Below are positions 4,063 to 21,467 of a stretch of 24,089 bases of DNA, in pieces. The first letter of the stretch is position 1. Every line of letters begins with the position of its first letter. Source of the DNA: a virus; IMG/VR virus record IMGVR_UViG_3300009152_000204, positions 1-24,089 of that record; one strand, given 5' to 3'. The notes under the pieces are model-generated. The model worked only from the letters and a program-made list of their open reading frames with translations, made no database searches and was not told the DNA's origin. The position numbers and the translations under genes are program-made.

Positions 4063-4070
4063 CCGCGGAT
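4061..4070. other. 10-base perfect palindrome overlapping a start codon
   Basis: The sequence atccgcggat is its own reverse complement, and its last two bases on the minus strand are the first two of the ATG at 4062. It is G+C-rich inside an otherwise A/T-only leader and occupies the place of a ribosome binding site. It could be a protein site, or chance. Confidence 0.35.
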
Positions 4071-4076
4071 TTTATT

Positions 4077-4086
4077 TAATAAATAC
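4077..4086 (-). promoter_or_regulatory. Putative late promoter, divergent copy, upstream of Thr/Pro-rich gene
   Basis: The minus strand reads GTATTTATTA, a variant of the CTATTTATAA motif found before the three other units. It ends 14 bases before the ATG at 4062, the same spacing as before the genes at 18978 (14) and 10562 (15). The gap before this gene is 95 bases (4063-4157), the longest leader in the region, and otherwise contains only A/T-rich sequence with no clear hairpin. Confidence 0.55.
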
Positions 4087-4157
4087 CGCAAGTATTCTAT
4101 TTCCTTACTAATAATCTTAAAAATAATAAAATGAATATCTTTTTTTAAAATTATTTA

Positions 4158-4538
4158 TTAACAGCTTGGGTCTGATAAATTTAAATCATTAATAAAACAA
4201 CTTGGGTCGGCTAAAGAAACTCCAAAAGTACAAGATGAATTTTGAATATTAATATCAACATTACAATTTGCCATCTCAATTGTAATTTGGAATGTACAAC
4301 CAAAAGTACAATTCAATATTTTGAATATTGAACAATTATTAGAGTCGACCAATGTCAACATTATTTGAGGTGCAGTCTGAAAAATTGAAGGTATAACAGT
4401 ATTATAATAAACTGTAGGTGGAACCGCAGAACTTATGGTACCAATCAAAGTTTGATAATTACCATAAACGTCCGATATATAAACACTAAACGGATACGCC
4501 GTACTCCCTGATATGTCTGTTATTCTAACTTGTGTCAT
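4158..4538 (-). CDS. Small Cys-rich virion-type protein, function unknown
   Basis: The ATG at 4538 overlaps the TGA stop of the adhesin gene in an ATGA junction, so I prefer it to a GTG nine bases upstream. The product is 126 residues, beginning MTQVRITDISG. The first half is beta-type with PFSVYISDVYGNY. The second half has seven Cys, ending in two SC-containing repeats (ADPSC and SDPSC, the latter at the very C-terminus). The Cys are not in a zinc-binding arrangement I recognise. It is last in the unit of the 995-aa and 710-aa tail proteins, so a small tail or fibre accessory protein is the best guess. Its PFSVY segment recalls PFSIY in the N-terminal domain of the next gene's product, but the match is too short to prove relation. 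Confidence 0.65.
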   Translation of the reverse strand: MTQVRITDISGSTAYPFSVYISDVYGNYQTLIGTISSAVPPTVYYNTVIPSIFQTAPQIMLTLVDSNNCSIFKILNCTFGCTFQITIEMANCNVDINIQNSSCTFGVSLADPSCFINDLNLSDPSC

Positions 4539-6667
4539 GATAAGCACATTATGTCATAAACTATTATTAAGTCAATTACAATTTCTTGTCCTTGTAAGGA
4601 TGTATTGTTTTTGCTTGTTTCAATAGTGATTTGATTATTTAATTGGTTGATAGTCACATTACCTATACCAGGAATACTCAACAATAAAGATTTTATAGTA
4701 TTATACCATAAATTATCACTTGGAGCTTGAACTAAAGATGTTGAAGTAAAGAATGGTTGGCTAACTACTATTCCTGCAGGATTTACCGATACTTTGGCAG
4801 TATATGTTGCATCAACTAAATTACAACTTGTATTACCTGTAGTTAAATCATAAAATCCTTCGTTCAACATTTGTAACATACCAAACTTAGTTGGTGAAGA
4901 AACGTTGAATACTTCTGCACCCATAACATATGATTGATATGAAGCATAATTTTTATAACAATTAATACTTGTCGTTCTTGTTAAAGAACATCCATTATCA
5001 TCAACTACGGTTAAACTATATGTTCCTGCGGTTAATCCTGTAACTTGAATTTGTTGTGGCTCATTAGGAATATTGTCCGACCAATTAAAATTAAATGGTG
5101 GTTCACCTGACGATATAAATGCTGTTATCTGTCCATTACTACCACTACCACAAGAAGTACTATATAATGAAAAATCTAAACGTTGGCTGAACGGAATAAA
5201 AACAGTTTGATTTTGAACACACCCATCAGAATCAGTAACACTAACATTATGGGCTCCTGCCGATAAATTATTAAACGTTACCGCGCTTAAGTTAGTATCA
5301 AGTACGTTATATAACCCATCTACAGAATAATCCAAAGGCATTGTACCTCCTGTTGTTGAATATATGGTTATTGTCCCATTATTTTGATTACAACTTGTTT
5401 CAGTAACATTTGTTGAAATTGTAAATTTGTTTTCTGTTATAATGGTAACTTCTTGCATGTAAGAACACCCTGTCGAATCTGAAACTGCGACAGTATACGT
5501 CCCTGTAGATAATCCATCAAAAACATAAGTTGTTTGAGAAGTGTTTATATTAAGTTGTGTACCATCTGGTGAAATTAATGTATAAGTATAAGGAGTTGCT
5601 CCACCAACTACCGATATTTGAATTAATCCATTTGTACTTGAACAAGTTGAATTTTGATTAGTAACCAATACTGAAGTTATTCCTCCAGGAGTTTGTAATG
5701 TAGTTCCAGCAAATAATTGACAATACGCAGCATCTGTAACTTGGAAGTTATAATCACCCGCAGTCAATCCTGATAAACTATAAGTTTTTGAATATGATAT
5801 TAATACGTTACCAGTTGATGCCGAATAATAATAGGGCGCAGTTCCTCCCGTGATAGTTAAATTAATAACACCATTATTTTGAAAACAACTTGGTGATGTT
5901 GAAGTTATAATACCTAATCCAATTTGATTAACATTTGTTACCGACCCTTCCGCAGATTTTGTACATCCATATGCATCTGTTACAGAAACCGAATAACTAC
6001 CTGAGGTTAATCCCGTAATGGTACTTCCTGTTTGACCGTTACTCCAAAGATATGAGAATGGAGCTTGTCCTGTTTGTCCTGTTACAATTATTTTACCTAT
6101 TGGAGTTCCTCCACAACTTGAATTTGGTACAACATATAAACCAAAACTAAACTCTGTTGACGTGTCAATAATAAAACTTTGTGTCTCTCCCGTACATCCT
6201 CCTAAATCTTGGGCCACCATATAATAAGAACCATAATCAATTCCTCCAAAAACAACTTGCTCAGTATTGGTCACTGCTGATTGAATCAAGGTGTTACTCA
6301 TATCATACAAATAAAAATTTGTTGACGAATATTGAGATGTTGAAGTTCCTGTTACAGAACCATTGGCTAAATTACATGTTGTATCCTGCACCCCTAAAAT
6401 TGAAGCACAAACTCCGCTTGACACAGGTATGTTTATATAAAACTCTTGGTTAGTTGGTATTGTAGAATCATTAACTCTGATTACATACGTATCTGCCGAC
6501 AATCCATATCTAGATGAATAAAGTACTGCGGTATCTTGACCTAAATCAGGACTTGTCCATTGAACGGTATATGGTGCGGTACCTCCTGTTGGTACTATAG
6601 TAATAGCTCCACCATTATTTGATTGACAATCACCCGTAATCTGTAATATATAATTAAAAGCCGCCAT
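4535..6667 (-). CDS. SprB-type repeat tail adhesin
   Basis: The 710-residue product has about seven repeats of roughly 75-80 residues (about 5-82, 88-168, 173-245, 250-328, 332-411, 414-492, 497-569). Each starts near a Cys with an NxGxI-type strand, has a G-G-xxPYxYxxS core, then L(S/T)xGxYxVxVTDxxGC. This is the SprB-repeat pattern known from the Flavobacterium gliding adhesin SprB and other Bacteroidota surface proteins. Residues 570-620 are a linker. Residues about 594-707 resemble the C-terminus of the upstream 995-aa protein (QPFFT...PSDNLW against EPFYT...PSNRDW). The ATG overlaps the previous stop as TAATG. I infer an Ig-like adhesin fixed to the tail through its C-terminus. The repeat call is strong; the adhesin role is inferred from family and context. 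Confidence 0.82.
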   Translation of the reverse strand: MAAFNYILQITGDCQSNNGGAITIVPTGGTAPYTVQWTSPDLGQDTAVLYSSRYGLSADTYVIRVNDSTIPTNQEFYINIPVSSGVCASILGVQDTTCNLANGSVTGTSTSQYSSTNFYLYDMSNTLIQSAVTNTEQVVFGGIDYGSYYMVAQDLGGCTGETQSFIIDTSTEFSFGLYVVPNSSCGGTPIGKIIVTGQTGQAPFSYLWSNGQTGSTITGLTSGSYSVSVTDAYGCTKSAEGSVTNVNQIGLGIITSTSPSCFQNNGVINLTITGGTAPYYYSASTGNVLISYSKTYSLSGLTAGDYNFQVTDAAYCQLFAGTTLQTPGGITSVLVTNQNSTCSSTNGLIQISVVGGATPYTYTLISPDGTQLNINTSQTTYVFDGLSTGTYTVAVSDSTGCSYMQEVTIITENKFTISTNVTETSCNQNNGTITIYSTTGGTMPLDYSVDGLYNVLDTNLSAVTFNNLSAGAHNVSVTDSDGCVQNQTVFIPFSQRLDFSLYSTSCGSGSNGQITAFISSGEPPFNFNWSDNIPNEPQQIQVTGLTAGTYSLTVVDDNGCSLTRTTSINCYKNYASYQSYVMGAEVFNVSSPTKFGMLQMLNEGFYDLTTGNTSCNLVDATYTAKVSVNPAGIVVSQPFFTSTSLVQAPSDNLWYNTIKSLLLSIPGIGNVTINQLNNQITIETSKNNTSLQGQEIVIDLIIVYDIMCLS
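4961..6655 (-). repeat. About seven SprB/Ig-like protein repeats
   Basis: The repeats are similar in protein but diverged in DNA, so they are old duplications rather than a recent tandem array. Most end in a TDxxGC-type motif (TDAYGC, SDSTGC, TDSDGC, VDDNGC). The first repeat lacks this motif (VNDST), and the fourth has TDAAYC instead. Confidence 0.75.
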
Positions 6668-9654
6668 TAAATGGTATTACAATTTATATTAATGTTTATT
6701 CCTGAATTTAAAGACAATATTTCTCCAACATTTCTTTCAGTACAAGTAAGACTCGTTACTGTTAAAATATTACCATTTAAGTAATAAGTGTATCCATATT
6801 TATATAATTCAGGTAGATATTGAATTAAAGCATTTCTCCAATCTCTGTTTGATGGTACATCTGTTAATCCGTAACCAGTATAAAATGGTTCTTGTATAAT
6901 ACTGTCACCTCCAATTGTTAAGTTAACATACCAATTAGATTGTACTGAATTTTGTACACATTCATTTAACGTTACCCCACTTGATGATAACATATTATTT
7001 AATCTGTTAGATAAAATACTACTAAAATTACTCACATTAGTATCACCATTTAACCAAGGATATATATTAAAATCTGTATACTCCGTCGCACATGTATAAT
7101 CAAATATATTTGAAATAATAAAACAAGGGTCGACAGGTACTGGTATAAATTGGCATCCTCTTTGTCTTCTATAAACAAATTTTTGTTTGTGTAAAACTGA
7201 GTTTTCCATTCTAACACCTGTATTCCAAATAGTTGTGGCAGGAATCATTTGTTCTGCCAATTTCATCCAATAAGGCCCAATACCATTTACGTAATCAATT
7301 AGTTTTTGATACGTATACTTGTTGTTTGGTAATCCAACAGTTGCTTCAGATTCAATATATTTCCACCAAATGGATTGTAATGTTGGATATCCTCCTGTTT
7401 TACCATCTGTAATGTATTGTCTGTTTCTAACATTAATCATGTTCTGCCAAAATGTTTGAGAGAATTCGAAGAATGTTTTTTTCTTTGGCTTAGGGTCAAC
7501 ATATGTCCAATCTACTCCACCAGGTACAGGATAACCAACAGTTAATCCTGATTCAGGAATTGGATAATCATATCTTCTTGATTGGTCCCAAACATCATAA
7601 ACAAGACCTTGTCCAGGGTTTAAGAATAAATCAACATTCTTAACATTTAGGACTAACTTTTCATTATCAACATAATAATAAGCATTATAGTCGGCGTTTG
7701 TTGAAACTCTAATTTTATTATCTTCTTCTAACCACGATTTATTATTATCAACAACTTGAGTTAATTTAAATCCTTCCGTCATATAAGGAAAATCTCTAAA
7801 TCTATTCAAATATGGTTGACCATAAGAAAACGGAGTTAATTGAGTTTGAATATCATAGTTTTGTCCTGTGTATACGCTTCCTGTAATTCGTACTTGGTCA
7901 GGACTTCTGTGTTGTGGTGTTACTTCGTACCATCCCGCTCCTAATTGGAAGAAATAATCCTCAGTATTAAGAGGTGCTTGAGGATAACCTAAATCATCTA
8001 TTGGATAATCTTCTAATCTAATGTTAACATTACTGTAAGTTGCCACGGATGTAAAAGCGCTATATACATTTCCTTTAATTTTATATGTTTGTCCTGGCAA
8101 ATAAGATGGAGTGTCTTGTACGTAAGTACCTCCCGATATTGAAGCCCATTGTGTATAGAATTGGTCTAAATTAATTCTTTGGTCAGCAAGATAAATGTGC
8201 TCATTGAATTCAATTAATGATTCGGGAGCTCCAATTAATCTCATCATAAATTCAACAGACCTTCTTGTTCCTTTAGATTTGAAAAGGTATGCTGCATTTA
8301 AAATTAAATTTCTATAAAACGCATAATTTAATTCTGTAGGCGTTAGGGCTCTTGCATAACCAGGATAAGTTGGTGTGTTTGTATTTCCAAAAACAGAGCT
8401 TAAAAAGTCTTCATTTGTTATTGGTGAAAAATTTGAAGAATATCCTAACGTTCTTGCAAGGTTAACTAACAACTCAGATGGAATGTCATTTTCAGGATTA
8501 TAATTAACCGAATTCATATAAGCCAATGCGTCAATGAATTGTTTTACTTGGTCAAAACTTCTACCGTATATTTGAAATATTTTTTCAACCTTTTGTCCTC
8601 TTGTATCAAATTCTTTTAATGAATCAGAAGTTAAAAATCTTGATATTAAATTTGTTTTAAACGAATCTAAATTCTTACCAATTTCCTCTAATTTACTTAA
8701 ATAGTCATCAAACAAAAAGGACCTAATATCTAAATTCCAAGTGCCATCCAACGGCCAAGTAACTTGTTGATAGTCAGTATAAAATTGCCCATCTTCATTT
8801 TGTTGAGGTACTTGAAATATTGCAGTATATGGTGGTCTTATTAAACGATTTAATAAAAACTTTTCAACCTCATCAAAATTCTCAGCGAATATTTTATCTG
8901 TAATAAAATCATTTGGTCTTATTTGGTATTGTTCGTTGATTGTAGAGGCTGTAGTACCAAATGGTGCTCCTGATACATAAAATTGAATATATCCCGAATT
9001 TAACGTCTCTGATGGTGTAAATGATACAATATTATATATGTTATCGTTAATACTCACACAATAATCTAAATAAGTGTTATATAAATTTCTGTATGGTGAC
9101 TGTGTAATCTCACTAGCTAATAAATTAGTTGATGCACTTATTGAGTAATCGATACCAAAAGGGTTGTTAATTCTACTAACGTCAACTTGAAAATATGTTT
9201 CATCTTCTGTTTCATTATATTGAATATTAGTTGCTGTAGGTCCTGTTGTAAAATCAAGGTTGGTATACATAATATCCAAAGAAGCTGGAAACTGATGAAG
9301 AATATGTGTAACCGAAACTTGGAATCTTTTACTTAAAGAACCATACATTGAAAAGTTAAGAACCTGAGATACGTCATAGTTTGGATAAACTCTAAATTGA
9401 GTTGCCATTATTCTACGACTTTCGGTTAAATCTTCAATATCTAACGAATCTAAACTAATAGGTTCAGAGAACGCTCCAACGTTAAAGGTTCTATTAACCT
9501 TTTCAACTACTGAAGTTGTAAACTCAAAATTACCTTGCGTAAGTCCGCCACCCTCAACTGTTTGTAATCCTACAATGTTGTCAGAAAAGGTTGCAGCTCC
9601 ACTACCAGGTCTTGGAGGGTAAAAGTATTTCGTAGTCTTTTGCGTTATCGCCAT
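6667..9654 (-). CDS. Large tail/baseplate protein with P2 gpI-like core
   Basis: The 995-residue product starts MAITQKTTKYFYPPRPGSG, with its ATG in a TAATG overlap with the previous gene. Residues 1 to about 250 are beta-type. Residues about 350-490 look like a tail protein I (P2 gpI) core: helical RGQKVEKIFQIYGRSFDQV, then SELLVNLARTLGY, then the diagnostic YLFKSKGTRRSVEFMMRLIG. Residues 500-790 are beta-rich. Residues 796-834 hold EQMIPATTIWNTGVR and the basic QKFVYRRQRGC. Residues about 880-990 form a module similar to the C-terminus of the 710-aa adhesin. P2 gpI corresponds to T4 gp7, which joins gp6 in the wedge core, so this may be the gp7 counterpart although it lies five genes after the gp6 homologue. 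Baseplate role is likely; exact equivalence is inference. Confidence 0.7.
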   Translation of the reverse strand: MAITQKTTKYFYPPRPGSGAATFSDNIVGLQTVEGGGLTQGNFEFTTSVVEKVNRTFNVGAFSEPISLDSLDIEDLTESRRIMATQFRVYPNYDVSQVLNFSMYGSLSKRFQVSVTHILHQFPASLDIMYTNLDFTTGPTATNIQYNETEDETYFQVDVSRINNPFGIDYSISASTNLLASEITQSPYRNLYNTYLDYCVSINDNIYNIVSFTPSETLNSGYIQFYVSGAPFGTTASTINEQYQIRPNDFITDKIFAENFDEVEKFLLNRLIRPPYTAIFQVPQQNEDGQFYTDYQQVTWPLDGTWNLDIRSFLFDDYLSKLEEIGKNLDSFKTNLISRFLTSDSLKEFDTRGQKVEKIFQIYGRSFDQVKQFIDALAYMNSVNYNPENDIPSELLVNLARTLGYSSNFSPITNEDFLSSVFGNTNTPTYPGYARALTPTELNYAFYRNLILNAAYLFKSKGTRRSVEFMMRLIGAPESLIEFNEHIYLADQRINLDQFYTQWASISGGTYVQDTPSYLPGQTYKIKGNVYSAFTSVATYSNVNIRLEDYPIDDLGYPQAPLNTEDYFFQLGAGWYEVTPQHRSPDQVRITGSVYTGQNYDIQTQLTPFSYGQPYLNRFRDFPYMTEGFKLTQVVDNNKSWLEEDNKIRVSTNADYNAYYYVDNEKLVLNVKNVDLFLNPGQGLVYDVWDQSRRYDYPIPESGLTVGYPVPGGVDWTYVDPKPKKKTFFEFSQTFWQNMINVRNRQYITDGKTGGYPTLQSIWWKYIESEATVGLPNNKYTYQKLIDYVNGIGPYWMKLAEQMIPATTIWNTGVRMENSVLHKQKFVYRRQRGCQFIPVPVDPCFIISNIFDYTCATEYTDFNIYPWLNGDTNVSNFSSILSNRLNNMLSSSGVTLNECVQNSVQSNWYVNLTIGGDSIIQEPFYTGYGLTDVPSNRDWRNALIQYLPELYKYGYTYYLNGNILTVTSLTCTERNVGEILSLNSGINININCNTI

Positions 9655-10562
9655 TAGCTAGTTATGTTTGTAAAGTTTTTACTGAAATCAATATTATCGT
9701 TTCTATTTTGTCTAACCTCATATAACAACGCGTTAAATTGGTCTCTAATTTCATATAAGTTGTATTGTCTGTATATGTTATTTTGAGAGTCATAGATTGT
9801 GTAAATACCATCATCAATAGACTTGGTCTGATTACCGTAAAGAGCAATAGCAAGAGATGAGATATCGTATTCAACCATTTCTACCTCCAAACTAATAGGA
9901 TTAAAGAAAGTGTTAGTGATAATAATATCTTGGTCAGGCTGTCCAATATATGGAGTTGCATTTGGTTTGTTAGTTGGTGATGATGAAGGTGATAGTGTTA
10001 GGAAAATAAGATTCGAATCTCCATCGACATATCTATATCTAATAGATTTTTGAGAAGTATTAACTTCATTACTTACAACTGGTTCGCAATAAAAACTTGA
10101 AGTAACTACTCTAAAGAAGTTAGGTATTTTTGAGCCGTCATTATTTAAGTATTCAATTCTAAATCCTACAAGTCCTTGAGGAACAAATTTATTTTGGTAT
10201 TGAGTAGGTACGTTACTAATATCGATAACAAGACCTTTAACATTTGGTAATGCGCTTAAAACACCACAATCAGTAATAACGGTTCTTATTTGAGCTGGTC
10301 TTAAATATAATGTGTAGATACCTAATGCGTTAAATTGATTTGCAGGTAATGTTAAATTATATAACCCACCTAAAACTTCAACACCCGCGTTTCCTCCTGT
10401 TTCACTATTAGCAAAGTAAGGTTTAAGTATGGTAGGTGCATCCAATTTTGTAAGCACAAATTGGTCTGTCACATCCCTTGTTGGAGTGTAGTTCATGATT
10501 ATCTCAACATCCTGTGGTGAAACATCTGATGGTCTTATTGTACCGTATGAGCCTATTGCCAT
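9654..10562 (-). CDS. Putative tail/baseplate protein, family not recognised
   Basis: The product is 302 residues, starting MAIGSYGTIRPSDVSPQDVE. It looks like a mixed beta protein with a short Ser/Pro/Asn linker (LSPSSSPTNKPNATPY, about residues 190-205) and a probable helical C-terminus (IYRQYNLYEIRDQFNALLYE). There is no signal peptide or membrane segment. It is the first gene of its unit, with a CTATTTATAA motif 15 bases upstream, and its stop overlaps the start of the gpI-like gene by one base. Tight coupling to that gene suggests a partner or assembly neighbour of the 995-aa protein. I cannot name a function. Confidence 0.6.
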   Translation of the reverse strand: MAIGSYGTIRPSDVSPQDVEIIMNYTPTRDVTDQFVLTKLDAPTILKPYFANSETGGNAGVEVLGGLYNLTLPANQFNALGIYTLYLRPAQIRTVITDCGVLSALPNVKGLVIDISNVPTQYQNKFVPQGLVGFRIEYLNNDGSKIPNFFRVVTSSFYCEPVVSNEVNTSQKSIRYRYVDGDSNLIFLTLSPSSSPTNKPNATPYIGQPDQDIIITNTFFNPISLEVEMVEYDISSLAIALYGNQTKSIDDGIYTIYDSQNNIYRQYNLYEIRDQFNALLYEVRQNRNDNIDFSKNFTNITS

Positions 10563-10577
10563 GTTCTCTTATTTAAT

Positions 10578-10587
10578 TTATAAATAG
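10578..10587 (-). promoter_or_regulatory. Putative late promoter upstream of the 302-aa gene
   Basis: The minus strand reads CTATTTATAA, 15 bases before the ATG at 10562. The 20 bases TAAACTATTTATAAATTAAA are identical to those upstream of the gene starting at 18978. It lies in a 42-base gap (10563-10604), the only gap between 18978 and 4158, where all other genes overlap. No conserved -35 element is visible, as in T4 late promoters. Confidence 0.65.
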
Positions 10588-10604
10588 TTTAGTTCTTTTT
10601 TTCA

Positions 10605-12517: not shown

Positions 12518-14225
12518 AATTATCTATTAATGGTTTGAATGAAAAATCATATCCTGTTAGATTATCATTATAGTTTATACCTTCAGGTATTAATCTAAAG
12601 TTTATATCTGAGTAAGGGTATTGTGCAGTATTCAAATATGGATAATCAACACCTCTACCAAGATTATCTCTATATCCATAAGTATACAAATCTCTCCATC
12701 TAAACTGTTGGTCCGTCATAGAGTAAAATGACCATTCAGGTACTTGGTCTACAAAAGCGACTCCACCTGTTTCAATATAATCAGAGAATACCCTAATTGT
12801 CATCTTATTATGAGGTTGGTAATAATACCCTGGCGCGTTTGTTGTTGCAACTGTTGTTGTTTGAAACACAGTTTGATTAAACTTTAATTTATGATAGTAT
12901 GGAGATACTACTCTTTCTATTTGTTCATAATCATTCCATTCACAGAAATCACCATCCATTATATCTCCTTTTTGTAAATCTAAGTTATAGTAGAATGTTT
13001 TGGTTTCTCCGTTTGTAAATGTGTATGCCGAGACTGGTATGTTTGTGTTTGATTTTTCATTGGTCAAATTCCACCACGGATTTGTTCTCTTTGATAAATT
13101 AAATTCCCATCCTTGTTTTAAACCAACTCCATTTTGTGGATTATTAAAATAACCTGAGTAACCTTTATTAACTATTGTTAAATAAATTTCAGTTATAGGT
13201 CTTTGTTGATTGTCTTTTAATCCAGCAAAATCCAAATCATATTTTGATGTCACATTATAAGTATTACTACTAGTTTTTTGAGAAATTCTAGTAATGTTGT
13301 TTGGAGTTATTGAACTATATTCTAATTTCTTTTCTTCATTAAAAACATTTTTTTCAAATCCAGCTTTAACCATTTCAAGGTCAGTTAGATTTGTTAAAAC
13401 TTTGTTTTGTTTTACATAATATTTTGACTTAGTTTCTGTTAAGTTATCAGGATTAATAACTCTTTTAAATGTACCTGTTGTACCATTACTAAATGTTGTT
13501 CCCGTATATCCAATATTTAAAACATTAAAGACATAAACACCGCTATCAAATAAACCATTACCTATAGAGTATACTTGAAATATATTTGAGTTTCTATACG
13601 TTATAGATAATTCAACATATTCTCCTTCAGTTAATCCATGAGGTGCAATACAATTAAACGCGATAAGTCCATTACCATTTGATGTAGAATTTAATATTGA
13701 AAAAGGTATTCCATCTTTTGCCAACCAATTTACTGCATTTGTATTATTTGAATAATAAGTTAATTCTTTATTATAATTGTTTTCATATGAATATGTTAAA
13801 TAGTACATCCAATTATAGGTATAAGCGCTTTTGGCTTTATATACAAAATGTTGGTCTGAAATATCTGGTCTAAAAAAATCAAATTCATAATATTGCGGAT
13901 AACCTGGCCATTTACTAGTACCACCATTTTGAGCACTTGATTTTGAATTCTCAGGACTTGTATAATAAAGATTATATTGGAAAGGTAAGTACCCTGTAGT
14001 TCCTGTATAAGTATTGGCATATAGATACGAGACTTTAAACGTTGGTCTAAATATTGTGCATCCTTGTCGTTCATCATCATATACTTGAGCCAAACTAATT
14101 GTCGAACTCCTATCATATTCAGTGATTTGTTGACTTTGTTCTTCAAGTGTTAATGAAATTTCTTCATTAACCGATGGTGCTCCTTTATATCTTAAGTTAC
14201 TTGGAACTATTGTATACTTACTCAT
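12510..14225 (-). CDS. Putative baseplate/tail structural protein, 571 aa
   Basis: The ATG at 14225 overlaps the previous stop by 8 bases (ATGAGTAA). The product starts MSKYTIVPSNLRYKGAPSVN and is strikingly Tyr- and Asn-rich. Residues about 187-256 contain CIAPHGLTEGEYVEL and a following GTTGTFKR, resembling the small beta domain with an HGL...G motif seen in various phage structural proteins. The C-terminal part has FRWRDLYTYGYRDNLGRGVD and then YPYLN. I do not recognise the whole protein. By place it could fill the role of a T4 gp8-like wedge accessory protein, but the sequence gives no support for that name. It has no membrane segment. Confidence 0.65.
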   Translation of the reverse strand: MSKYTIVPSNLRYKGAPSVNEEISLTLEEQSQQITEYDRSSTISLAQVYDDERQGCTIFRPTFKVSYLYANTYTGTTGYLPFQYNLYYTSPENSKSSAQNGGTSKWPGYPQYYEFDFFRPDISDQHFVYKAKSAYTYNWMYYLTYSYENNYNKELTYYSNNTNAVNWLAKDGIPFSILNSTSNGNGLIAFNCIAPHGLTEGEYVELSITYRNSNIFQVYSIGNGLFDSGVYVFNVLNIGYTGTTFSNGTTGTFKRVINPDNLTETKSKYYVKQNKVLTNLTDLEMVKAGFEKNVFNEEKKLEYSSITPNNITRISQKTSSNTYNVTSKYDLDFAGLKDNQQRPITEIYLTIVNKGYSGYFNNPQNGVGLKQGWEFNLSKRTNPWWNLTNEKSNTNIPVSAYTFTNGETKTFYYNLDLQKGDIMDGDFCEWNDYEQIERVVSPYYHKLKFNQTVFQTTTVATTNAPGYYYQPHNKMTIRVFSDYIETGGVAFVDQVPEWSFYSMTDQQFRWRDLYTYGYRDNLGRGVDYPYLNTAQYPYSDINFRLIPEGINYNDNLTGYDFSFKPLIDNCE

Positions 14226-17200
14226 CTATTGAATATTTTGTTTTAAATCTGTCTAATGCCGATTCCCCTTTAACCACTCCAAAATAAAATTGGAACGGAG
14301 CTCCGACTAAAAATTTACTTGAAGTTTGTGGTGTTGAAGTGTATCGTCCTCCTACTGTTGGATAACTTGTTACGTTTCCATCTACACTATATATGTATCC
14401 TCTTGCGGTTAAGTCATTTGCAACTGATGTTCCATTTAAATAATATTTTGTATTTGTGGCAGCCCTATCTAAAGATTGATAGTTATTTTGAATAATGTCA
14501 GCGGTATCTGTCGCCCAATTATTATTTTGATTTCCAAAAATAGTACTACTGCCAGACGCCATTTTCCATTGATAAAATGGTGTTAATTGTGATTTGACAC
14601 CATAAGCAAATGGAAAATACCCATTATTATTAGTCCCTCTAAAATCAATTCTACCAGGAGTTAAATAATCTTTAGTTTGAAGGTCTTGAGTTGTTGATGA
14701 ATACCAAACAGCCATAATTGGGTCACTACTTGTACCTAAGATGTTTGTCGCATTAATTGCTCCAGGTCTTATTTCATAATATTCAGGTGAAAAATTAACA
14801 TTACCTATTTCAGAATTTATTGACATTAATTGTGCTAAATCACCGTCAATTCTTAGTTGGGGTCTTGAAAATAATTGGTTAATTGAGTTATTACCTAAAG
14901 GAATTATTTGAGCCAAAAAACTTTCATCTGTAATTCTAGAAATAACAAATAAATTAATTAAATCTGAAGTATCTCCATAACTAGTTGAGTCTATATTAGG
15001 TATTATATATCCTTTAGTTGCTGGGTCAAAAGTTATTTCAGAATAAAAATAATCTTTCATACCCAAGTTAATTATTGTTGTTGGATATAATAAATTTAAT
15101 ATATTAACACCTCCAGGGTTATTTGTTTTTTTACCTATAAATTTATTTGAAATATCATTCCAAGGACTACTTCTATAATAGAAATTATTACTATCCATAT
15201 TAAAATATGCAACGTCGTTGGCAAATCTAGGATATTCGGGTTTATTTTTACTGTCGTAATATGTGTTAACTTGTAATGGAAATGCATATAACGAACCATT
15301 AATCCAATTATTCATAAATGATTGAGATAGAACTCCTCTACACAATCCATAGAAAAATCTAAACCTAAAACCCCATTCTCCAAAGTTTCCAAGGTCTTTC
15401 ACTAAGTCCGTTAAAGGTCTTCTCATGAACATATAACAACCACCTTCAACCGCATCCGCAGTTGTACATTGTTGGTTTATAGTAAAGTTATCTCCAAATC
15501 CTTGATAACAATCTAATCCGACCATAGATTCGCAATTAAAACTTTCCAATACTTTAATTGAGTTTGCTAATCCTTCTAAATCAGGAGTAACTGTTTGAGC
15601 ACCTGTTGAGAAAGCGGTTGAGGTAATATCATCAGACTCAGTATTAACCAAATAAACATAAAAATTATTATTTTGCTGTAATAAAGATGGATTATTTGTA
15701 AATGAAGAGCCATCTAATCCATCCGAAGATGGTAATCTATCAGTTCGTAAAACATTTAATGTGTCATTATTAATTAACATTGTAGGATTAGTACTAAAGA
15801 ATGTTTTTGTTGTATAATAATAACCAAAGCTAGCTGTGTTAACCACAAAATTACTTATACCTGAATTACACGCCATTACTGCAGACCCAGATAAGTCTTC
15901 ACTGTTATCGTATTTGGCACTAGATGCGTTGACATAATAAAAACCATTTGAAGATAACGAAAGTACTTTGTTACCATTAATTGTTGACTTAACAGGTAAA
16001 GGACTTGTTGTTGCGTCTAATGAACCATAATAGGCGGTATTTGTTGTTGTAAATCCCGTAAATGATTGTCCTGCTATTGGTGATGTTGTAGTACCAGGTT
16101 TAAAGAAATAAGATTGATAGTACATATTAGTTTGATTATACGGTTGTACAGTCATGCTAGATGTGTCTACTTTTTGTATAGGTATATTAACTCTTGTTGA
16201 TGCGGTTATTGTCCAATTTGAATCAAACTCAGTTGTTCCAAATAAATTACCCAAACAATATTCATTAACATATTTTGGAGAATATGGGTCAACCCCTCTT
16301 TGTAAAACTACAATATATTGTTCGTTAGCCCCTTGGAAAAATTCATAAGCGTTTAAAGTATTACTTATACCAAAAATGTATCCCCCAATCCACGCCCTCC
16401 AGATATTTGAGATAGAAGGAGTATTTAAAACATTCCCAAAAGATTGGGTTGTACCTGTGTTCCATATTTTAGCCGCGTCTGAAACAGTTATTGCGGTAAT
16501 GACTTGATAATATTCAAAATCCGCAGGGAATCTATAATTTGTTTCTGAAGAACCATACGGTAAATTATATCTTACAGGTGTTAAAATATTTGATGTTTGA
16601 GTTGTAGCATATGACACATCAATATATGTTGCTCCACTACCATTATAAGTTTGTCCACTAATTCCTGTAACCAATGTCGCCGTATCACCTGTTGTCAATC
16701 CAGTATAAAGATAATTAGTGTCAGTAGTCCCTGTTATGTTAACAAAAGTCAAAAGGTCTCCAGCTTGAAATTGTTCTTGACATAAAACTGTTATTGTATT
16801 GTCATAATGAAATTTACCTAAATTAGAATCTTTCGCGATTGTTACTTTAATTTTATTAATGTTTGAAAAATAACTATCTCTTTGATTAAAAATATTAATC
16901 CTTTCTCCAATAGGTAAACTATATGAATTAACAAATCTAGAAACTCCATCACTAGTGTTTAATGTTTGAGAAAGTGGTAATTTATATCTTCCTGGATTCA
17001 TATTAGCGGATGATAACGATAAACCCGCGAATGACTCAGAATACATTGTTGCATATACTGACCCATCTTCAGTTAACCCTGAAAAATAAGTTGATACTAA
17101 ACCATCATAATAAGAATCAGGTGATGATAAAAAACTTAAAACCCCTCCAGAAGCAGTATTATTAGCAATACCTGTTGTTTTTAAATCTTGAGTACACTCA

Positions 17201-18978
17201 CAGGCCTGACAATCAGGATAAGTTATCATTGGTAATCTTATTGTATAATCTTTTCTATTACAATATTTTCTCCATTTCTTAAATGGGTACCAAGTTATCG
17301 CAATAATACTAAAACCAATACCCGAAAGCCAACATAAAAAATCAAGAACTAAGTTATACAAGAATAATAAAATATGTCCAAGTGTTAATAAAATTAATGC
17401 AATTGGTTGTATTACCGTAAAAATTATTGAAAATAGAAAAAATAAAAAATCAAAATTTTTAAATCCGTCATTAACTGGAAATTTATTTACACTATCTTCA
17501 CAGTCTTGGTTATCAATTTCTTTAATACCAATAAATTTACCAGGAGATGGCCCAAGAAAACCTCCCCCTTTTTTAAATTGGTCAATTAATGACGATACAG
17601 TATAAACTCTATTATATTGAAATTCATAAAATGTATCTTCACAATCTATTACTTCATTAAGCCTATCTATTTTTTGTTGTCCACTAAATCCATTGGTATA
17701 TCCGCTCCACGCAAGTCCAAAATAATAAGAACTTTGTTGTCTTTTACCATTTAAAGTTGTCGGAGTACCAAATGTTGTTGGGTCTGCAGTTGGCGTTGAC
17801 CATCCGTATTCTTTAACATTTGGAACTAAATAATAAGGCCTTCTTGTTTGTAAAGTTAAATCGTTTGGTTGCGTCCACTTAACTTTAAAACGATATTTTG
17901 CCTTTGTTGGAATACCTATTGTTGGGTCATTAGACAAAACTTTTTCTCCAAATTCATTAGTTATAAAATAATCCAAATTCATTGGAAGTTCTATTAACCA
18001 TGTTCCTGAACCATCAATAACATTACCTGATTGTTCTAAATCATATTGTTCTAAAACAGGATTACCTTCACTATCTTGTTGTATTGTTTGTCTTAACGCC
18101 AAGATTTGGCCAGGAGCTGTTGTTAACCCACATAAGTTACCCATATCATCCCTTGGTCTACCATTTGCGCGTAATCTGTAACTATCTGGTGTTGAGAACA
18201 TTGAACCCATAAACACTGATGTTGGTTGAATATCAACATTAGCGTCATCCCTTAAGTCAAAATCTAATCTACTAACTGCAATTTGGCAAATTGTTGGGTC
18301 ACCCCATAATGGAGAAATTTCGGCGTTTTTAGTTAAACTAATAATTTGAGGTAGTGAACTTAAATCAGTCGATGACCTAAATTTACTACCAGCAACTTGA
18401 GCTTCAGTTGCAAGACCCATTCTAATCAAATCCTGAGGTGTTAGAGAGAAGTCCCCTATGTCTGACAGGTCAACATCCATAACAATAGTTTGTTCTCCTA
18501 ATGGAGCTCCCATTATCATGTAATCACCACTCTCGTTAGTTTTGGCTGTGAACTTATAATAAGTGTCATAAATTTCAACGGCAGTTAATCCTGTTAGAAC
18601 ATCCAATCTTGTTGGAAGGGTTCCTGTTGCCGCGTGCTTTGAATAAGATTTTTCGTAAGGCAATAGATTATATCTATAACCATCATCATTTTTATCTGTT
18701 GGTGATTTGTAAGGATATATACTTGAAATAAGTGGGTTAGATTCGTCTACAGTTTTTATTGGGACAAAAACAGATACTCTCGCATTAGGTATACCAAATC
18801 CATTGTTTGCAGTAACCCTACCTACTAATACACCATATTCCGAACAACTTCTTGTATAAATGTTGGACTGTTGTATTTTCAACGATAAAATTTCTAAAAA
18901 CTCAAATTCTTGGTCTATTTGAACATTAATATTTTTATTAACACCAAGTTCGGTTTTAATACGATATGATTCAGCCAT
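14218..18978 (-). CDS. Giant baseplate-associated protein with carboxypeptidase-regulatory-like domain and internal membrane-like segment
   Basis: The product is 1586 residues, the largest in the window, with its ATG preceded by AAAGG at a suitable distance. Residues about 48-172 look like a carboxypeptidase-regulatory-like beta-sandwich (GVLVGRVTANNGFGIPNARV ... NESGDYMIMGAPLGEQTI) with an insertion at about 76-145. Residues 173-500 are mixed. Residues 509-564 are strongly hydrophobic, enough for two or three membrane helices, then come basic KKWRKYCNRK and a Cys cluster, DCQACEC (590, 593, 595). Residues 600-1586 are beta-rich and Asn/Ser/Thr-rich, ending in APFQFYFGVVKGESALDRF. It follows the gp6-like gene and heads its own promoter unit. 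I infer a baseplate component, perhaps one contacting the host membrane. No exact homologue is recognised. Confidence 0.7.
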   Translation of the reverse strand: MAESYRIKTELGVNKNINVQIDQEFEFLEILSLKIQQSNIYTRSCSEYGVLVGRVTANNGFGIPNARVSVFVPIKTVDESNPLISSIYPYKSPTDKNDDGYRYNLLPYEKSYSKHAATGTLPTRLDVLTGLTAVEIYDTYYKFTAKTNESGDYMIMGAPLGEQTIVMDVDLSDIGDFSLTPQDLIRMGLATEAQVAGSKFRSSTDLSSLPQIISLTKNAEISPLWGDPTICQIAVSRLDFDLRDDANVDIQPTSVFMGSMFSTPDSYRLRANGRPRDDMGNLCGLTTAPGQILALRQTIQQDSEGNPVLEQYDLEQSGNVIDGSGTWLIELPMNLDYFITNEFGEKVLSNDPTIGIPTKAKYRFKVKWTQPNDLTLQTRRPYYLVPNVKEYGWSTPTADPTTFGTPTTLNGKRQQSSYYFGLAWSGYTNGFSGQQKIDRLNEVIDCEDTFYEFQYNRVYTVSSLIDQFKKGGGFLGPSPGKFIGIKEIDNQDCEDSVNKFPVNDGFKNFDFLFFLFSIIFTVIQPIALILLTLGHILLFLYNLVLDFLCWLSGIGFSIIAITWYPFKKWRKYCNRKDYTIRLPMITYPDCQACECTQDLKTTGIANNTASGGVLSFLSSPDSYYDGLVSTYFSGLTEDGSVYATMYSESFAGLSLSSANMNPGRYKLPLSQTLNTSDGVSRFVNSYSLPIGERINIFNQRDSYFSNINKIKVTIAKDSNLGKFHYDNTITVLCQEQFQAGDLLTFVNITGTTDTNYLYTGLTTGDTATLVTGISGQTYNGSGATYIDVSYATTQTSNILTPVRYNLPYGSSETNYRFPADFEYYQVITAITVSDAAKIWNTGTTQSFGNVLNTPSISNIWRAWIGGYIFGISNTLNAYEFFQGANEQYIVVLQRGVDPYSPKYVNEYCLGNLFGTTEFDSNWTITASTRVNIPIQKVDTSSMTVQPYNQTNMYYQSYFFKPGTTTSPIAGQSFTGFTTTNTAYYGSLDATTSPLPVKSTINGNKVLSLSSNGFYYVNASSAKYDNSEDLSGSAVMACNSGISNFVVNTASFGYYYTTKTFFSTNPTMLINNDTLNVLRTDRLPSSDGLDGSSFTNNPSLLQQNNNFYVYLVNTESDDITSTAFSTGAQTVTPDLEGLANSIKVLESFNCESMVGLDCYQGFGDNFTINQQCTTADAVEGGCYMFMRRPLTDLVKDLGNFGEWGFRFRFFYGLCRGVLSQSFMNNWINGSLYAFPLQVNTYYDSKNKPEYPRFANDVAYFNMDSNNFYYRSSPWNDISNKFIGKKTNNPGGVNILNLLYPTTIINLGMKDYFYSEITFDPATKGYIIPNIDSTSYGDTSDLINLFVISRITDESFLAQIIPLGNNSINQLFSRPQLRIDGDLAQLMSINSEIGNVNFSPEYYEIRPGAINATNILGTSSDPIMAVWYSSTTQDLQTKDYLTPGRIDFRGTNNNGYFPFAYGVKSQLTPFYQWKMASGSSTIFGNQNNNWATDTADIIQNNYQSLDRAATNTKYYLNGTSVANDLTARGYIYSVDGNVTSYPTVGGRYTSTPQTSSKFLVGAPFQFYFGVVKGESALDRFKTKYSIDE

Positions 18979-18992
18979 GTAATACCTTTAAT

Positions 18993-19002
18993 TTATAAAT
19001 AG
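18993..19002 (-). promoter_or_regulatory. Putative late promoter upstream of the 1586-aa gene
   Basis: The minus strand reads CTATTTATAA, ending 14 bases before the ATG at 18978, inside the 96-base gap 18979-19074. The surrounding 20 bases equal those at the promoter before 10562. An AAAGG between motif and ATG is the only Shine-Dalgarno-like sequence among the promoter-proximal genes. The rest of the gap is A/T-rich; a weak GTGTT/AACAC hairpin may end the gp6-like transcript, but I do not rely on it. Confidence 0.65.
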
Positions 19003-19074
19003 TTTATGTGTTATTTTTAAAGTATAAACACACTCTTTTTAAATTATAAACTAAACGATTTGAGAATAAACCTA

Positions 19075-20913
19075 TTAAGAGAAGGTAACCGATTGGAAGT
19101 TTTTAACCGAAATTCTGATGTCTTTATTTGGATAACGAATTTGATAAACTTGTGATGGTTGAGCAAAAATTGTATCATCAACAGGTACAATTTCTTTTGT
19201 TTCGGGATTTGAATATTGCATTGACGTTTCAGCCGAAGAGTATTGCCCCCCAACATTATTATAAACGTTAAGACCCGCAACAGTTAAAACACCATTTTGA
19301 TTTTGAACAATACTTCTAATCTCAGATAGATAAACGTTTTGACCAAGTTGTCTTACTTGTGGATTAAAATATGTAGATATCTTATCAACAACATCAGAAA
19401 TAATCTGTCCTGAATTTTGTGCAGAGTCTAATACAATTTGAACATCAACACTAAGGTCAATAACCTCAGCAGTTAATATTGAAATATAATCATTCATCAT
19501 TCTATAATTAGAAAGATATGTTGCAACGTTCTGTCTTAATGTATCAGATACTATACTTGTTAATTTACCTGATGTATCGTAAGATAATAACTGAATTAAA
19601 ATTTTGTTATTGTTTTCCGTAATTGAAACTTTGGCAGGAGCTCCAAACTCTGATGGCATATTTCTAATAATCGCCTCATAATCTTGTACTGTAACCGCTC
19701 TTTTTTGTGCGGCAAAGTTAAATGAAACGTAGTTTCTAATTTCTTCTAACGAAGGAATACCTGCTCCACCGATAGCCGCAGTCACGTTAGTACATCTTAA
19801 TGAGTTAACTACTGAAGAGTTAGTTGACTCTGAAGGACCATTAACATAAAATGAAACGGTTCCTATTTGAGTAATAACATTTGTACCTAAGTTTGTTGCT
19901 AATCCACCACCGACTCTATATTGAATAAATAATGTTGAATTAGGGATTAATGCAGAACCTAATGAAAAGTTATTAGAATATCTTTGTAAGTCTAATGTTG
20001 TACCTAATGTTGTAAATTGATTTAATGCATCTTGAGCGGTGTTAGTTCCACCACCAAATGTCATCTTTTTAAATCCTTCAGAAGTGTACTCGCTAATAAA
20101 TCTATTTTGAGTTTGGATATATTTTCCAACTTTAATACCTGGCTGGTCTGATACTTTTGTAGGGTCTTCAATAAACACTCTATCTTCGGCTAATGCGTCA
20201 ACTTGATACCATTTATTAGAAGCTCCTAAGAATTCTGCAGCTGTTGGTAAGTTTGTATACTCTGTTCCACTTTTTAATAAAACACTAGTAATACCTAATA
20301 CGTTCTTTTCAGGTAAGAATAATTCAAAAAATGGTCTAACATCATTTGGCCCAATAACTCTTTTGAATACTTTAGTAATACCATTAACAACAAGTTCTCT
20401 TTTTGTAATGGTATAGTTAATTAAAACGTTATTTGCGTTAAAGTTAGGTATCTTTAATCTATTCGGGAATCCTTGGGCGTTATATGGTGATGTAAAATCA
20501 ATGTCATATATATTTTCAAAAACTATTCCCGCTCCTGTCACTTGAGAACCTCTTGTAAGTGTTCCTAAGTATCTTTCATCTTCTTTGTCTCCAAACGCAG
20601 GTACTGTAATTGAAAAATCAACTAAAGATACTGAAGGTCTTTGACCTGGCAATTTTAAACCATAGGTTCTTGCAATGTTATAAATTGAAGACCTTTGTTG
20701 TGCGTATTGAAGAACTGTTTCTTGAATACTTCTATCAATATGATAATGTAGGTTATCTGCGACCGCAGCATTCAAATCTAAGAATACTGAAAATACAGAA
20801 GCGTCATTAAAATCTTGAATTAATTCAGGATAATATGTTCTTACATAATTTAATAACTCAGTTCTTATTCCTTGATAGTCTCTGGTTGTATATGATATTT
20901 TACGATTTGCCAT
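19075..20913 (-). CDS. Baseplate wedge protein, T4 gp6 / P2 gpJ family
   Basis: The 612-residue product begins MANRKISYTTRDYQGIRTEL and continues with VFLDLNAAVADNLHYHIDRS and AQQRSSIYNIARTYG, the N-terminal signature of T4-like gp6 wedge proteins. Residues about 385-430 hold the baseplate_J-type segment EEIRNYVSFNFAAQKRAVTV, then QDYEAIIRNMPSEFG. Length is close to T4 gp6 (660). In T4, two gp6 copies per wedge form the dimeric backbone of the inner baseplate together with gp25 and gp7. It starts 5 bases after the gp25-like gene and shares its promoter. The leader before the ATG is A/T-only, without Shine-Dalgarno. The identification is strong. Confidence 0.92.
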   Translation of the reverse strand: MANRKISYTTRDYQGIRTELLNYVRTYYPELIQDFNDASVFSVFLDLNAAVADNLHYHIDRSIQETVLQYAQQRSSIYNIARTYGLKLPGQRPSVSLVDFSITVPAFGDKEDERYLGTLTRGSQVTGAGIVFENIYDIDFTSPYNAQGFPNRLKIPNFNANNVLINYTITKRELVVNGITKVFKRVIGPNDVRPFFELFLPEKNVLGITSVLLKSGTEYTNLPTAAEFLGASNKWYQVDALAEDRVFIEDPTKVSDQPGIKVGKYIQTQNRFISEYTSEGFKKMTFGGGTNTAQDALNQFTTLGTTLDLQRYSNNFSLGSALIPNSTLFIQYRVGGGLATNLGTNVITQIGTVSFYVNGPSESTNSSVVNSLRCTNVTAAIGGAGIPSLEEIRNYVSFNFAAQKRAVTVQDYEAIIRNMPSEFGAPAKVSITENNNKILIQLLSYDTSGKLTSIVSDTLRQNVATYLSNYRMMNDYISILTAEVIDLSVDVQIVLDSAQNSGQIISDVVDKISTYFNPQVRQLGQNVYLSEIRSIVQNQNGVLTVAGLNVYNNVGGQYSSAETSMQYSNPETKEIVPVDDTIFAQPSQVYQIRYPNKDIRISVKNFQSVTFS

Positions 20914-20918
20914 TTATA

Positions 20919-21389
20919 TTAAATATTGATAATAACAAAATCACTCTGCGAATAAGTGTTTTTATCTGTTGAGTAGTCTATTTTAACTTTTGCCGTGTAA
21001 TCCGAAGTTCCTTTTCCTGGAAATCTATATATTGGAGATTCAGTTGTTCCTAATGTGCTTTGACCTGTTGCAATATCAACTTCCTCTTGTGGGTCTGCAG
21101 GGGTGATTGTTATATTGTTTAACAATAGATTTGGCATAAAGTTTGCCACAGCATCTCTTATGTCAGATTCAATTGCGTCGAATGTAAGTCCATCAAACGG
21201 TTCAAATACAAATTCATATAATCTTGTTCCAAAAGTAGGTAAAAAATATCTTGAACCTTTTCTTGTTAACAAAAGATGAATTAAATCCGCTTTAATTTCT
21301 TGTGCTTCAAACTGAGTAAGTTGCAAATAATCTCCCCTACTAGAATCTCTAAAAGGGAAATTAAGACCATATGTTGTACCTTGAGCCAT
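20919..21389 (-). CDS. Baseplate wedge protein, T4 gp25 / P2 gpW family
   Basis: The 156-residue product matches the gp25-like family: a helical EAQEIKADLIHLLLTRKGSR, then the core PTFGTRLYEFVFEPFDGLT, followed by DAIESDIRDAVANF and a NNITITPAD strand. gp25 nucleates the sheath at the baseplate and binds gp6. The family's usual Glu-Pro-Arg at the end of the helix appears here as Met-Pro-Asn (residues 85-87). About 25 residues (98-125) extend the region before the last strands. The gene heads a two-gene unit with the gp6-like gene; its promoter motif lies 29 bases upstream and the nrdA terminator just before that. Despite the old name gp25 lysozyme, no lysozyme activity should be assumed. Confidence 0.92.
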   Translation of the reverse strand: MAQGTTYGLNFPFRDSSRGDYLQLTQFEAQEIKADLIHLLLTRKGSRYFLPTFGTRLYEFVFEPFDGLTFDAIESDIRDAVANFMPNLLLNNITITPADPQEEVDIATGQSTLGTTESPIYRFPGKGTSDYTAKVKIDYSTDKNTYSQSDFVIINI

Positions 21390-21418
21390 AACTATAAATA
21401 TAATGTCCTGATTTTTCC

Positions 21419-21428
21419 TTATAAATAG
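21419..21428 (-). promoter_or_regulatory. Putative late promoter upstream of the gp25-like gene
   Basis: The minus strand reads CTATTTATAA, 29 bases before the ATG at 21389, immediately downstream of the nrdA terminator. A second similar word, TATTTATAG (21392-21400), sits only two bases before the ATG, too close to serve as its promoter. An AGGA lies between motif and ATG but too far from the ATG for normal spacing. Confidence 0.6.
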
Positions 21429-21435
21429 ATTAAAA

Positions 21436-21467
21436 TAAATAATCCCGATGGTGGTCGGGATTATTTA
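21436..21467 (-). terminator. Rho-independent terminator of nrdA
   Basis: A perfect 13-bp stem (21436-21448 with 21455-21467) encloses a 6-base loop. The stem core is TCGGGATTATT and its complement. On the minus strand it starts 6 bases after the nrdA stop (TAA, 21476-21474) and is followed by TTTTAAT. It separates the nucleotide-metabolism genes from the structural unit. The A/T-rich base of the stem could let it work in both directions. Confidence 0.85.

Follow-up and report, generated by a model that had tools for sequence, protein, structure and literature searches.

The stretch of DNA analysed here (the window) is the complete 24,089-base virus record IMGVR_UViG_3300009152_000204 of IMG/VR, a 24-kilobase (kb) fragment of a T4-like (gp25, gp6) Bacteroidota phage, and our subject is the AT-rich word TATTTAT that stands before several of its minus-strand genes. 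Our results indicate that TATTTAT is very probably a promoter and that it likely represents a T4-like late promoter class of Bacteroidota phages. It would be a variant of the T4-type late-promoter system that is these phages' own. A preliminary description of the same DNA had proposed that a motif, TATTTATWA, heads four structural transcription units. That observation is confirmed and enlarged here: the sites are real, the core of the motif is TATTTAT, and it heads many more units than structural ones.

The counts that carry this conclusion come from three large relatives, contigs of 317, 321 and 309 kb (G001, G011 and G012; triplets of values refer to them in this order). All 7-mers in the 40 nucleotides (nt) before genes were counted without bias, with the expectation taken from the leaders' own dinucleotides, and TATTTAT was over-represented, being present in 94 of 380, 103 of 378 and 89 of 421 leaders against 11.4, 9.2 and 13.4 expected. 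It ranks first, first and third among the leader 7-mers; the two words above it in G012 belong to TATCTTTG, the Bacteroidota TAnnTTTG element, which is prominent in G001 too. Per strand and per kb, TATTTAT occurs 0.14, 0.11 and 0.23 times in genes versus 2.4, 2.1 and 2.2 times between genes, and this 10- to 19-fold difference disposes of the refutation that the preliminary description had envisaged, namely a motif equally frequent inside genes genome-wide. The motif also follows the layout of the genes: it precedes 71 of 150, 72 of 142 and 61 of 148 genes with a gap of 15–99 nt before them, and only 3 of 162, 7 of 169 and 5 of 192 genes where the gap is below 15 nt. Where genes diverge it was seen on both strands, and it was also seen behind GGGTTTTT tracts that resemble terminators (these cases were not counted); among G011 leaders the word GGGTTTT is over-represented as well (12 against 2.0 expected).

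The spacing of the motif is equally informative. For logos and for the A-run and spacing tallies, identical contexts were counted once, and genes less than 80 nt from a contig end were omitted from the logos and from the tally of A position by spacing. The distance from motif to ATG is bimodal, with peaks at 4–5 (to 6) and at 13–16 nt; 132 of the 272 distinct sites at 3–24 nt lie 3–6 nt before the ATG, and the copies at 4–5 nt (37, 42 and 44) agree with a −10-like signal about 10–12 nt before the start codon. In the 13–16 nt class an A-run occupies positions +11, +12 and +13 of the motif (83, 95 and 83% A, n = 85), and in the 4–6 nt class the ATG itself occupies that position relative to the motif. 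At spacings of 13, 14, 15, 16 and 17 nt (12, 28, 19, 23 and 6 sites), +12 is A in 100, 100, 100, 91 and 100%, and AAA lies within +11 to +14 in 83 of 123 sites at 13–24 nt versus 19 of 257 motif copies inside genes. Since the position of the A-run is fixed to the motif regardless of the start codon, these data argue for a promoter with a preferred starting base. In Flavobacterium johnsoniae the −7 element of the host ends 4 or 5 nt before the transcription start (PMC6847099), and by this rule we infer that the first transcribed base would lie in the A-run for the 13–16 nt class and would be the A of the ATG for the 4–6 nt class. Leaderless starts at the close-spaced sites are therefore quite likely, and about half of the near-gene sites would probably give leaderless mRNAs. 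The spacing class is mostly kept between orthologues: among reciprocal best pairs with the same protein start (190, 144 and 130 pairs in three comparisons), it was conserved in 14 of 16, 12 of 17 and 11 of 15 pairs at 3–6 nt and in 21 of 26, 13 of 17 and 11 of 16 pairs at 12–18 nt.

Orientation separates the motif from its supposed T4 counterpart. The T4 late promoter consensus is TATAAATA, whose exact reverse complement is TATTTATA, and it was through this reverse complement that kinship with T4 had been suggested. Of 95 hits in G001, 55 place TATTTATA at most 40 nt upstream of a same-strand start and 14 place TATAAATA there, whereas in a T4 positive control (50 kb of late genes, 55 annotated genes, 60 nt upstream) it is TATAAATA that precedes genes, in 12 of 18 hits versus 5 of 18 for TATTTATA, at 14–28 nt from the ATG and never nearer. 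The two orientations are opposite, and we reject the proposed kinship. The absence of a −35 box was correctly described: in logos of 66, 57 and 85 sites, every column between −18 and −45 of the motif start stays at or below 0.2 bits.

The raw count in the window itself was not used as evidence by us: TATTTATWA occurs 6 times against a shuffle mean of 3.77, a number reached in 17 of 100 shuffles and hence not above chance. As to placement, the stretches immediately preceding the 13 minus-strand gene starts add up to 598 positions and hold 6 of all 12 TATTTAT copies counted on both strands (binomial P 3e-9), one of them in a terminator T-tract; measured against the leaders' own AT-rich make-up, 5 copies are observed for 0.66 expected (P 6e-4), and the reverse complement is absent where 0.97 would be expected. 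The four minus-strand sites of the preliminary description stand where it had placed them, CTATTTATAA at 21419–21428, 18993–19002 and 10578–10587 and GTATTTATTA at 4077–4086, and the two before the genes starting at 18978 and 10562 do share the 20 bases TAAACTATTTATAAATTAAA. Three of these TATTTATWA copies end 14, 15 and 14 nt ahead of the ATG and the fourth 29 nt ahead of it; the gaps in which the four lie measure 84, 96, 42 and 95 nt, and no other gap in the late-gene array exceeds 16 nt. For gp25, one site was an undercount. Its gene has a distal copy at 21421–21427, with AAAA at motif +11 to +14 and a start predicted near 21415 that would give a leader of about 26 nt, and a proximal copy at 21394–21400, previously overlooked, which lies 4 nt before the ATG and for which the predicted start is the A of that ATG (leaderless). 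The copies heading the genes at 14218–18978 (a product of 1586 amino acids (aa)), 9654–10562 and 2374–4062 lie at 18995–19001, 10580–10586 and 4079–4085, with starts predicted near 18989, 10574 and 4073 and leaders of about 11, 12 and 11 nt. All these copies are on the minus strand. A further TATTTAT at 21435–21441 is part of the T-tract of a terminator (21438–21465).

Relatives conserve these leaders. The sets for gp25 and for the 1586-aa gene were drawn from 83 loci, of which L001–L003 are the window itself, and that for 2374–4062 from the 23 of 66 loci whose match begins at residue 1. Before the 1586-aa gene, all 36 distinct leaders (79 loci, window included, with proteins 48–100% identical) keep TATTTAT at 14–17 nt from the ATG, all 36 have AAA within +11 to +14, and CATAAAC directly precedes the motif with 97–100% conservation per base; judged by this conservation, the CATAAAC block is a candidate extra element beyond the core promoter. 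Several of the same leaders (18978–19030 in the window) also have a TGTGT...ACACA inverted repeat upstream. All 35 distinct gp25 leaders (73 loci) contain TATTTAT in their last 60 nt, terminator-tract copies counted; the proximal copy is exact within the last 14 nt in 28 of them, the window's included, the remaining 7 having TATAATTAT, and the distal pattern [CG]TATTTATAA is present in 19. TATTTAT is kept in 29 of 31 distinct leaders of 9654–10562 (77 of 80 loci), the orthologues in G004, G005 and G012 being without it, and in all 15 distinct leaders (23 loci) of 2374–4062. In the latter leader (window 4062–4090; relatives L331–L370), CCGCGG abuts the ATG in the window and some relatives, with CCTCGG, CATCGG or CTGCGG in others, and GCGG stands immediately ahead of the motif; a small hairpin or a binding place for a protein may lie here.

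Which genes carry the motif could be asked in immuto, a cultured and annotated Flavobacterium phage whose recorded host is Flavobacterium sp. LMO8, by taking as unit heads the genes with a gap of at least 15 nt and searching 60 nt before them. Of the heads in the structural block (78906–100819 and 114006–160354), 20 of 32 have TATTTAT versus 11 of 73 elsewhere, an enrichment and not exclusivity, with a Fisher P of 3e-6 that is not blind because the block was drawn from the annotation after the sites had been listed, a point against us. The comparison was therefore repeated with genes picked by product name alone: 20 have structural names, 12 of these have the gap, and 9 of the 12 carry the motif versus the same 11 of 73 (P 6e-5). 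The nine are the genes for tail spike, terminase, portal, tail-fibre protein, structural protein, sheath, tail completion, hub and tape measure; the three without it are the capsid gene gp23 (126896) and the genes at 137955 and 142850. From this enrichment before structural units we infer that the class is fairly likely a late one. A second uniform motif, TATATTTAGRTATCAATAATTAAAAC with core TATATTTAGRTA, was seen at 62–77 kb of the immuto record (L118); the core heads none of the 32 structural-block units versus 18 of the 73 others, and it is perhaps an early promoter of this phage. Few of the TATTTAT copies in immuto stand as close as 3–6 nt to an ATG. In G001, where functional names were transferred with 59 immuto proteins, only 20 genes were matched, too few for counting by function. 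Within 60 nt, the motif precedes the genes for gp25 and head completion (5 nt), protease (13), portal (29), structural220 (30), tail completion (33) and sheath (34), and none was found within that distance of DnaB, exonuclease, recombinase, ThyA, DnaG and PhoH.

The relatives provide candidate readers. As the preliminary description supposed for a distinct promoter without a −35 box in a Bacteroidota phage, they encode sigma factors of their own, and PF00562 detects no RNA polymerase in them (0 of 4 genomes, by a scan that matched 14 of 14 controls), on which ground a phage RNA polymerase was rejected as the reader; the single-subunit model PF00940 matched no control, which makes its scan uninformative. 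G001 has two sigma genes. One, of 265 aa, is RpoD-like (phrog_351, 5e-55; regions 1.2, 2 and 4 in Pfam). The other, of 260 aa (92371–93153), is the gp55-like gene whose search had been recommended, and its relatives are present on at least 593 IMG/VR contig stretches. More distant ones occur in immuto (within a gene annotated as hypothetical, E 7e-14), in a 484-kb uncultured phage (2.5e-12) and in a Microcystis phage (3.8e-12). A 12-sequence profile that includes these distant relatives matched 8 gp55 sequences with a probability of 93.3% (E 2.7e-7, 131 columns), and a narrower profile with 78.8%. In three distant phages (L400, L401 and L402) the gp55-like and gp6-like genes share a strand, the former about 4–5 kb upstream of the latter, an arrangement that differs from that in G001.

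The AlphaFold model of the whole gp55-like sigma is modest (predicted local distance difference test (pLDDT) 67, predicted template modelling score (pTM) 0.41), and the first 27 Foldseek rows are sigma factors or initiation complexes by title, with a best E of 0.007 and none passing 0.001. Residues 41–142 of the model superpose on sigmaE region 2 with Z 9.2 and a root-mean-square deviation (rmsd) of 2.7 over 91 residues, a Z that in helical folds may reflect a common arrangement. The protein has an extra C-terminal domain, its last 96 residues being modelled as helical (pLDDT 81, pTM 0.71); against sigmaE region 4 these give Z 5.4 and rmsd 3.9 over 69 of 69 residues, next to 5.5 for an unrelated chain and a best Foldseek E of 1.7. 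Sigma region 4 ranks among the better matches for this domain, though no higher than unrelated chains, and the gp55-like sigma may or may not carry a region 4. A gp33 inside this protein was considered and rejected, since it has no profile similarity to T4 gp33 (hhalign 0.6%).

Who reads TATTTAT is nevertheless the step at which another reading has to be taken seriously. The reader could be the phage RpoD-like sigma of 265 aa, of which G001 encodes a full version, or the host primary sigma taking the motif as a TAnnTTTG variant: many sites read TATATTTAT, one base off TAnnTTTG plus T, and the spacing to the predicted start fits the 4–5 nt rule of the host. The TA two bases before TTTA is not conserved (TATATTT occurs in 48 and GTATTTA in 30 of 380 leaders), the enriched word has A where TTTG has G, so that the invariant TA and TTTG of the host element are both wanting, and TATCTTTG coexists with TATTTAT as a separate class in G001 and G012. 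Moreover, immuto has both the TATTTAT class and the gp55-like gene, and even at E up to 1 nothing in it matches Sigma70_r2; the class there thus needs no RpoD-like phage sigma, and the host's own sigma could still serve. On balance we hold a reader of either of these two kinds to be possible but rather unlikely.

That TATTTAT should be a translation-start element instead of a promoter is a natural thought in a phylum whose hosts do without Shine-Dalgarno pairing, all the more since the motif lies near ATGs and no copy stands within 120 nt of any of 70 tRNA genes; this last result also makes tRNA genes unusable as proof of a transcriptional role. The large tRNA clusters lie at 134989–140972 in G011 and at 131607–138851 in G001, and the host-type TAnnTTTG was found 6–10 nt upstream of 6 of the 70 genes. 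Translation in Flavobacterium is indeed tuned by the bases just upstream of the start codon, but what is known to favour it is an A at −3 and at −6, and not TATTTAT (PMC6847099). The A-run tracks the motif and not the ATG, tightly packed operon genes seldom carry the motif, and it follows terminator-like tracts and, in the uncounted cases mentioned above, occupies both strands of divergent pairs, all of which makes a role in translation very improbable. As for a mere composition effect, by which any AT-rich word would serve, the leaders are AT-rich and the raw count in the window does not exceed shuffles; yet the dinucleotide expectation of the leaders is surpassed 7- to 11-fold, the reverse complement, of equal composition, is far rarer before genes, and the motif is conserved among relatives down to 48% protein identity. 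These counts already refute it, and we give it practically no credence.

Several results weigh against a T4-like late promoter class and have to be set beside the evidence above. Besides the tRNA genes and the full RpoD-like sigma of G001, these concern, in the counts, the gene calling in the large relatives, which was done by an ATG-only script. AAA is found in only 5 of 47 copies at 25–60 nt from the ATG and, among gp25 copies at 12 nt or more, in only 9 of 28 (terminator copies included), and each of the three orthologue comparisons contains one pair that switches between 3–6 and 12–18 nt. The sites before 10562 and 18978 also hold TATAAATT, one base off the T4 consensus. With regard to function, 12 of the 32 block heads in immuto are without the motif and 11 of 73 others have it; in G001 no copy lies within 60 nt of the ATG of gp6, hub, gp23, TerL or the tail-fibre-like gene, the copies before portal, structural220 and tail completion are distant and without AAA at +11 to +14, the replication gene Ssb has a copy at 42 nt and NadR one at 5 nt, and many motif-headed genes have no known function. 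On the side of the sigma factor, the similarity to gp55 over the region 2 core is, as far as profiles can tell, a remote kinship. When five records were scanned with phrog_234, the gp55 family, the 484-kb record gave nothing and the other four gave the gp55-like gene and no other (E 6e-4 to 8e-3), but at the same loose threshold the scan also matched 7 of 14 control genomes; single sequences gave 0.044, the distant relatives alone 0.62 or nothing, and Pfam Sigma70_r2 0.05–0.1 in two of four only. In a profile search of the PDB, gp55 came second (E 0.007) behind an unrelated vesicle protein (0.0022). Finally, T4-type gp33 (phrog_254) and the gp45 clamp (phrog_223) were each found in 0 of 6 genomes and PF02916 (gp45) gave nothing above cut-off in 5, by profiles that may miss divergent forms.

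Taking both sides together, we propose that TATTTAT would act as the single −10-like element of a promoter class in T4-like Bacteroidota phages, with transcription starting on an A 11–12 bases after the first T of the motif (TATTTAT-N4/5-A). Where this A is that of the start codon the mRNA would be leaderless; where it is part of an A-triplet some 11 nt upstream of the ATG, the mRNA would carry a leader that is very short and rich in A. The host RNA polymerase, most likely with the phage gp55-like sigma, would read the motif late in infection, and the output would be the structural units along with further late ones; the host-type TAnnTTTG element would serve the remaining units, including some tRNA genes. 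The pairing of TATTTAT with the gp55-like sigma is in our estimate somewhat better than an even chance. More speculative, and on present evidence rather doubtful, is a scheme in which this protein is a one-piece T4-type late sigma, with a gp55-like region 2 fused to a region-4-like domain that does the joint job of gp55 and gp33, directing the host RNA polymerase to TATTTAT-N4/5-A; roughly half of the starts would fall on AUG, a large share of late mRNAs would be leaderless, and bS21, encoded by some of these phages, may favour them on host ribosomes.

The genes of the window bear on the structural label given to its units. Its minus strand encodes the ribonucleotide reductase large subunit, the gp25 and gp6 baseplate wedge proteins, a SprB-repeat protein and a tail-fibre protein. 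The ribonucleotide reductase gene is followed by an intrinsic terminator (21438–21465, minus strand), an 11-bp perfect inverted repeat AATAATCCCGA/TCGGGATTATT with a T-rich tract. Next come the gp25-like gene (20919–21389; PF04965 1.8e-10, phrog_261 5e-17) and, 5 nt after it and without a motif copy of its own, the gp6-like gene (19075–20913; phrog_6 4e-24, PF04865 7e-8). The 1586-aa gene that follows holds the gp7 position and is named by position only, as it has no PHROG family and no match among phage records. The gene at 9654–10562 (302 aa) has no PHROG or Pfam family, and that at 2374–4062 (562 aa) belongs to phrog_15511, of unknown function (2e-13), and precedes the gene at 3–2357, which matches tail-fibre families. 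The product of 4535–6667 shows a weak Hoc-like match (1e-8). All of these are on the minus strand. The structural designation therefore holds by family for gp25, gp6, the tail fibre and, weakly, 4535–6667, and has no such basis for the genes headed by three of the four sites, which have no family of known function. SprB is a gliding adhesin of Flavobacteriia, and the product of 4535–6667, a virion-region protein, contains six SprB-repeat stretches (PF13573, 1.5e-26). Because of these repeats, and because the nearest named relatives by gp6 are the Flavobacterium phages immuto (27% identity), we assign the window to a Bacteroidota host. No near-identical phage was found among named phage records; in IMG/VR the gp6-like protein has at least 595 related stretches, one of them on the 317-kb contig.

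If the proposed class is what it seems, a phage group that is frequent in IMG/VR, with at least 593 stretches carrying the gp55-like sigma and at least 595 the gp6-like protein, gains a candidate for its late switch. A 2010 review of T4 late transcription asks, in the passage concerned, why there is no fused late-transcription sigma and states that none had been found (PMC2988020); the class proposed here makes this question testable. Likewise, the predicted genome-wide set of leaderless phage mRNAs, together with phage bS21 in some members, offers a concrete and testable mechanism for the preferential translation of phage transcripts. For annotation, the motif is an aid in locating start codons and the heads of units.

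In relation to what is published, bS21-encoding freshwater Bacteroidetes phages of up to 331 kb, with Bacteroidetes hosts, have been described (Chen et al. 2022, PMC9723584), in a main text that nowhere uses the words promoter, motif, sigma or leaderless. We found bS21 in G001, G011 and G013, inside the head-gene region in G001, with no match in G012 or immuto, and the phages of that study probably belong to the same group. In G001 the bS21 gene (L213, 107695–107847) lies on the opposite strand to the neighbouring head genes and has TATTTGT 5 nt before an ATG, a word intermediate between the two promoter classes. Sigma factors and gp33 orthologues are reported from T4-like jumbo phages, some of which infect Bacteroidetes (PMC7824862). 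Among the matches listed in our literature search, which mostly excluded subscription journals, no title or abstract dealt with this motif or with leaderless late mRNAs in Bacteroidota phages.

Four known systems offer themselves for comparison. The late promoters of phiKZ-type phages (TATG, with G as the start) share with TATTTAT an AT-rich, minimal late motif near the start, but they are read by a phage multisubunit RNA polymerase (PMC5312081), of which PF00562 detected none here. The TANNNT promoters of Actinobacteria and Deinococcus-Thermus resemble it in that a −10-like signal about 10–12 nt upstream of the start codon marks leaderless genes (PMC3160421); the present motif differs in being phage-specific and in occurring in a phylum with mostly leadered host mRNAs, leaders exceeding 10 nt in 87% of the F. 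johnsoniae mRNAs assessed (PMC6847099). The primary-sigma promoters of Bacteroidota (TTTG/TAnnTTTG) have the same 4–5 nt from element to start and a weak or absent upstream box (PMC6847099), whereas TTTG is not invariant in the phage motif and the phage genomes hold both classes side by side. A further parallel in layout is with the T4 late promoters of Straboviridae and relatives, which depend on gp55, gp33 and gp45 and consist of a lone −10-like element read by gp55 (PMC7892883, PMC2988020): both lack a −35 box, both head structural genes, and both would use a phage-encoded sigma region 2 protein on the host RNA polymerase. They differ in that the gp33 and gp45 families of T4 were not found here, in the sense of the element, TATAAATA in T4 and TATTTAT here, in its distance from the ATG, 14–28 nt in T4 as against 3–6 nt for nearly half of the near-gene copies here, and in the extra C-terminal domain of the sigma factor that we propose as reader.

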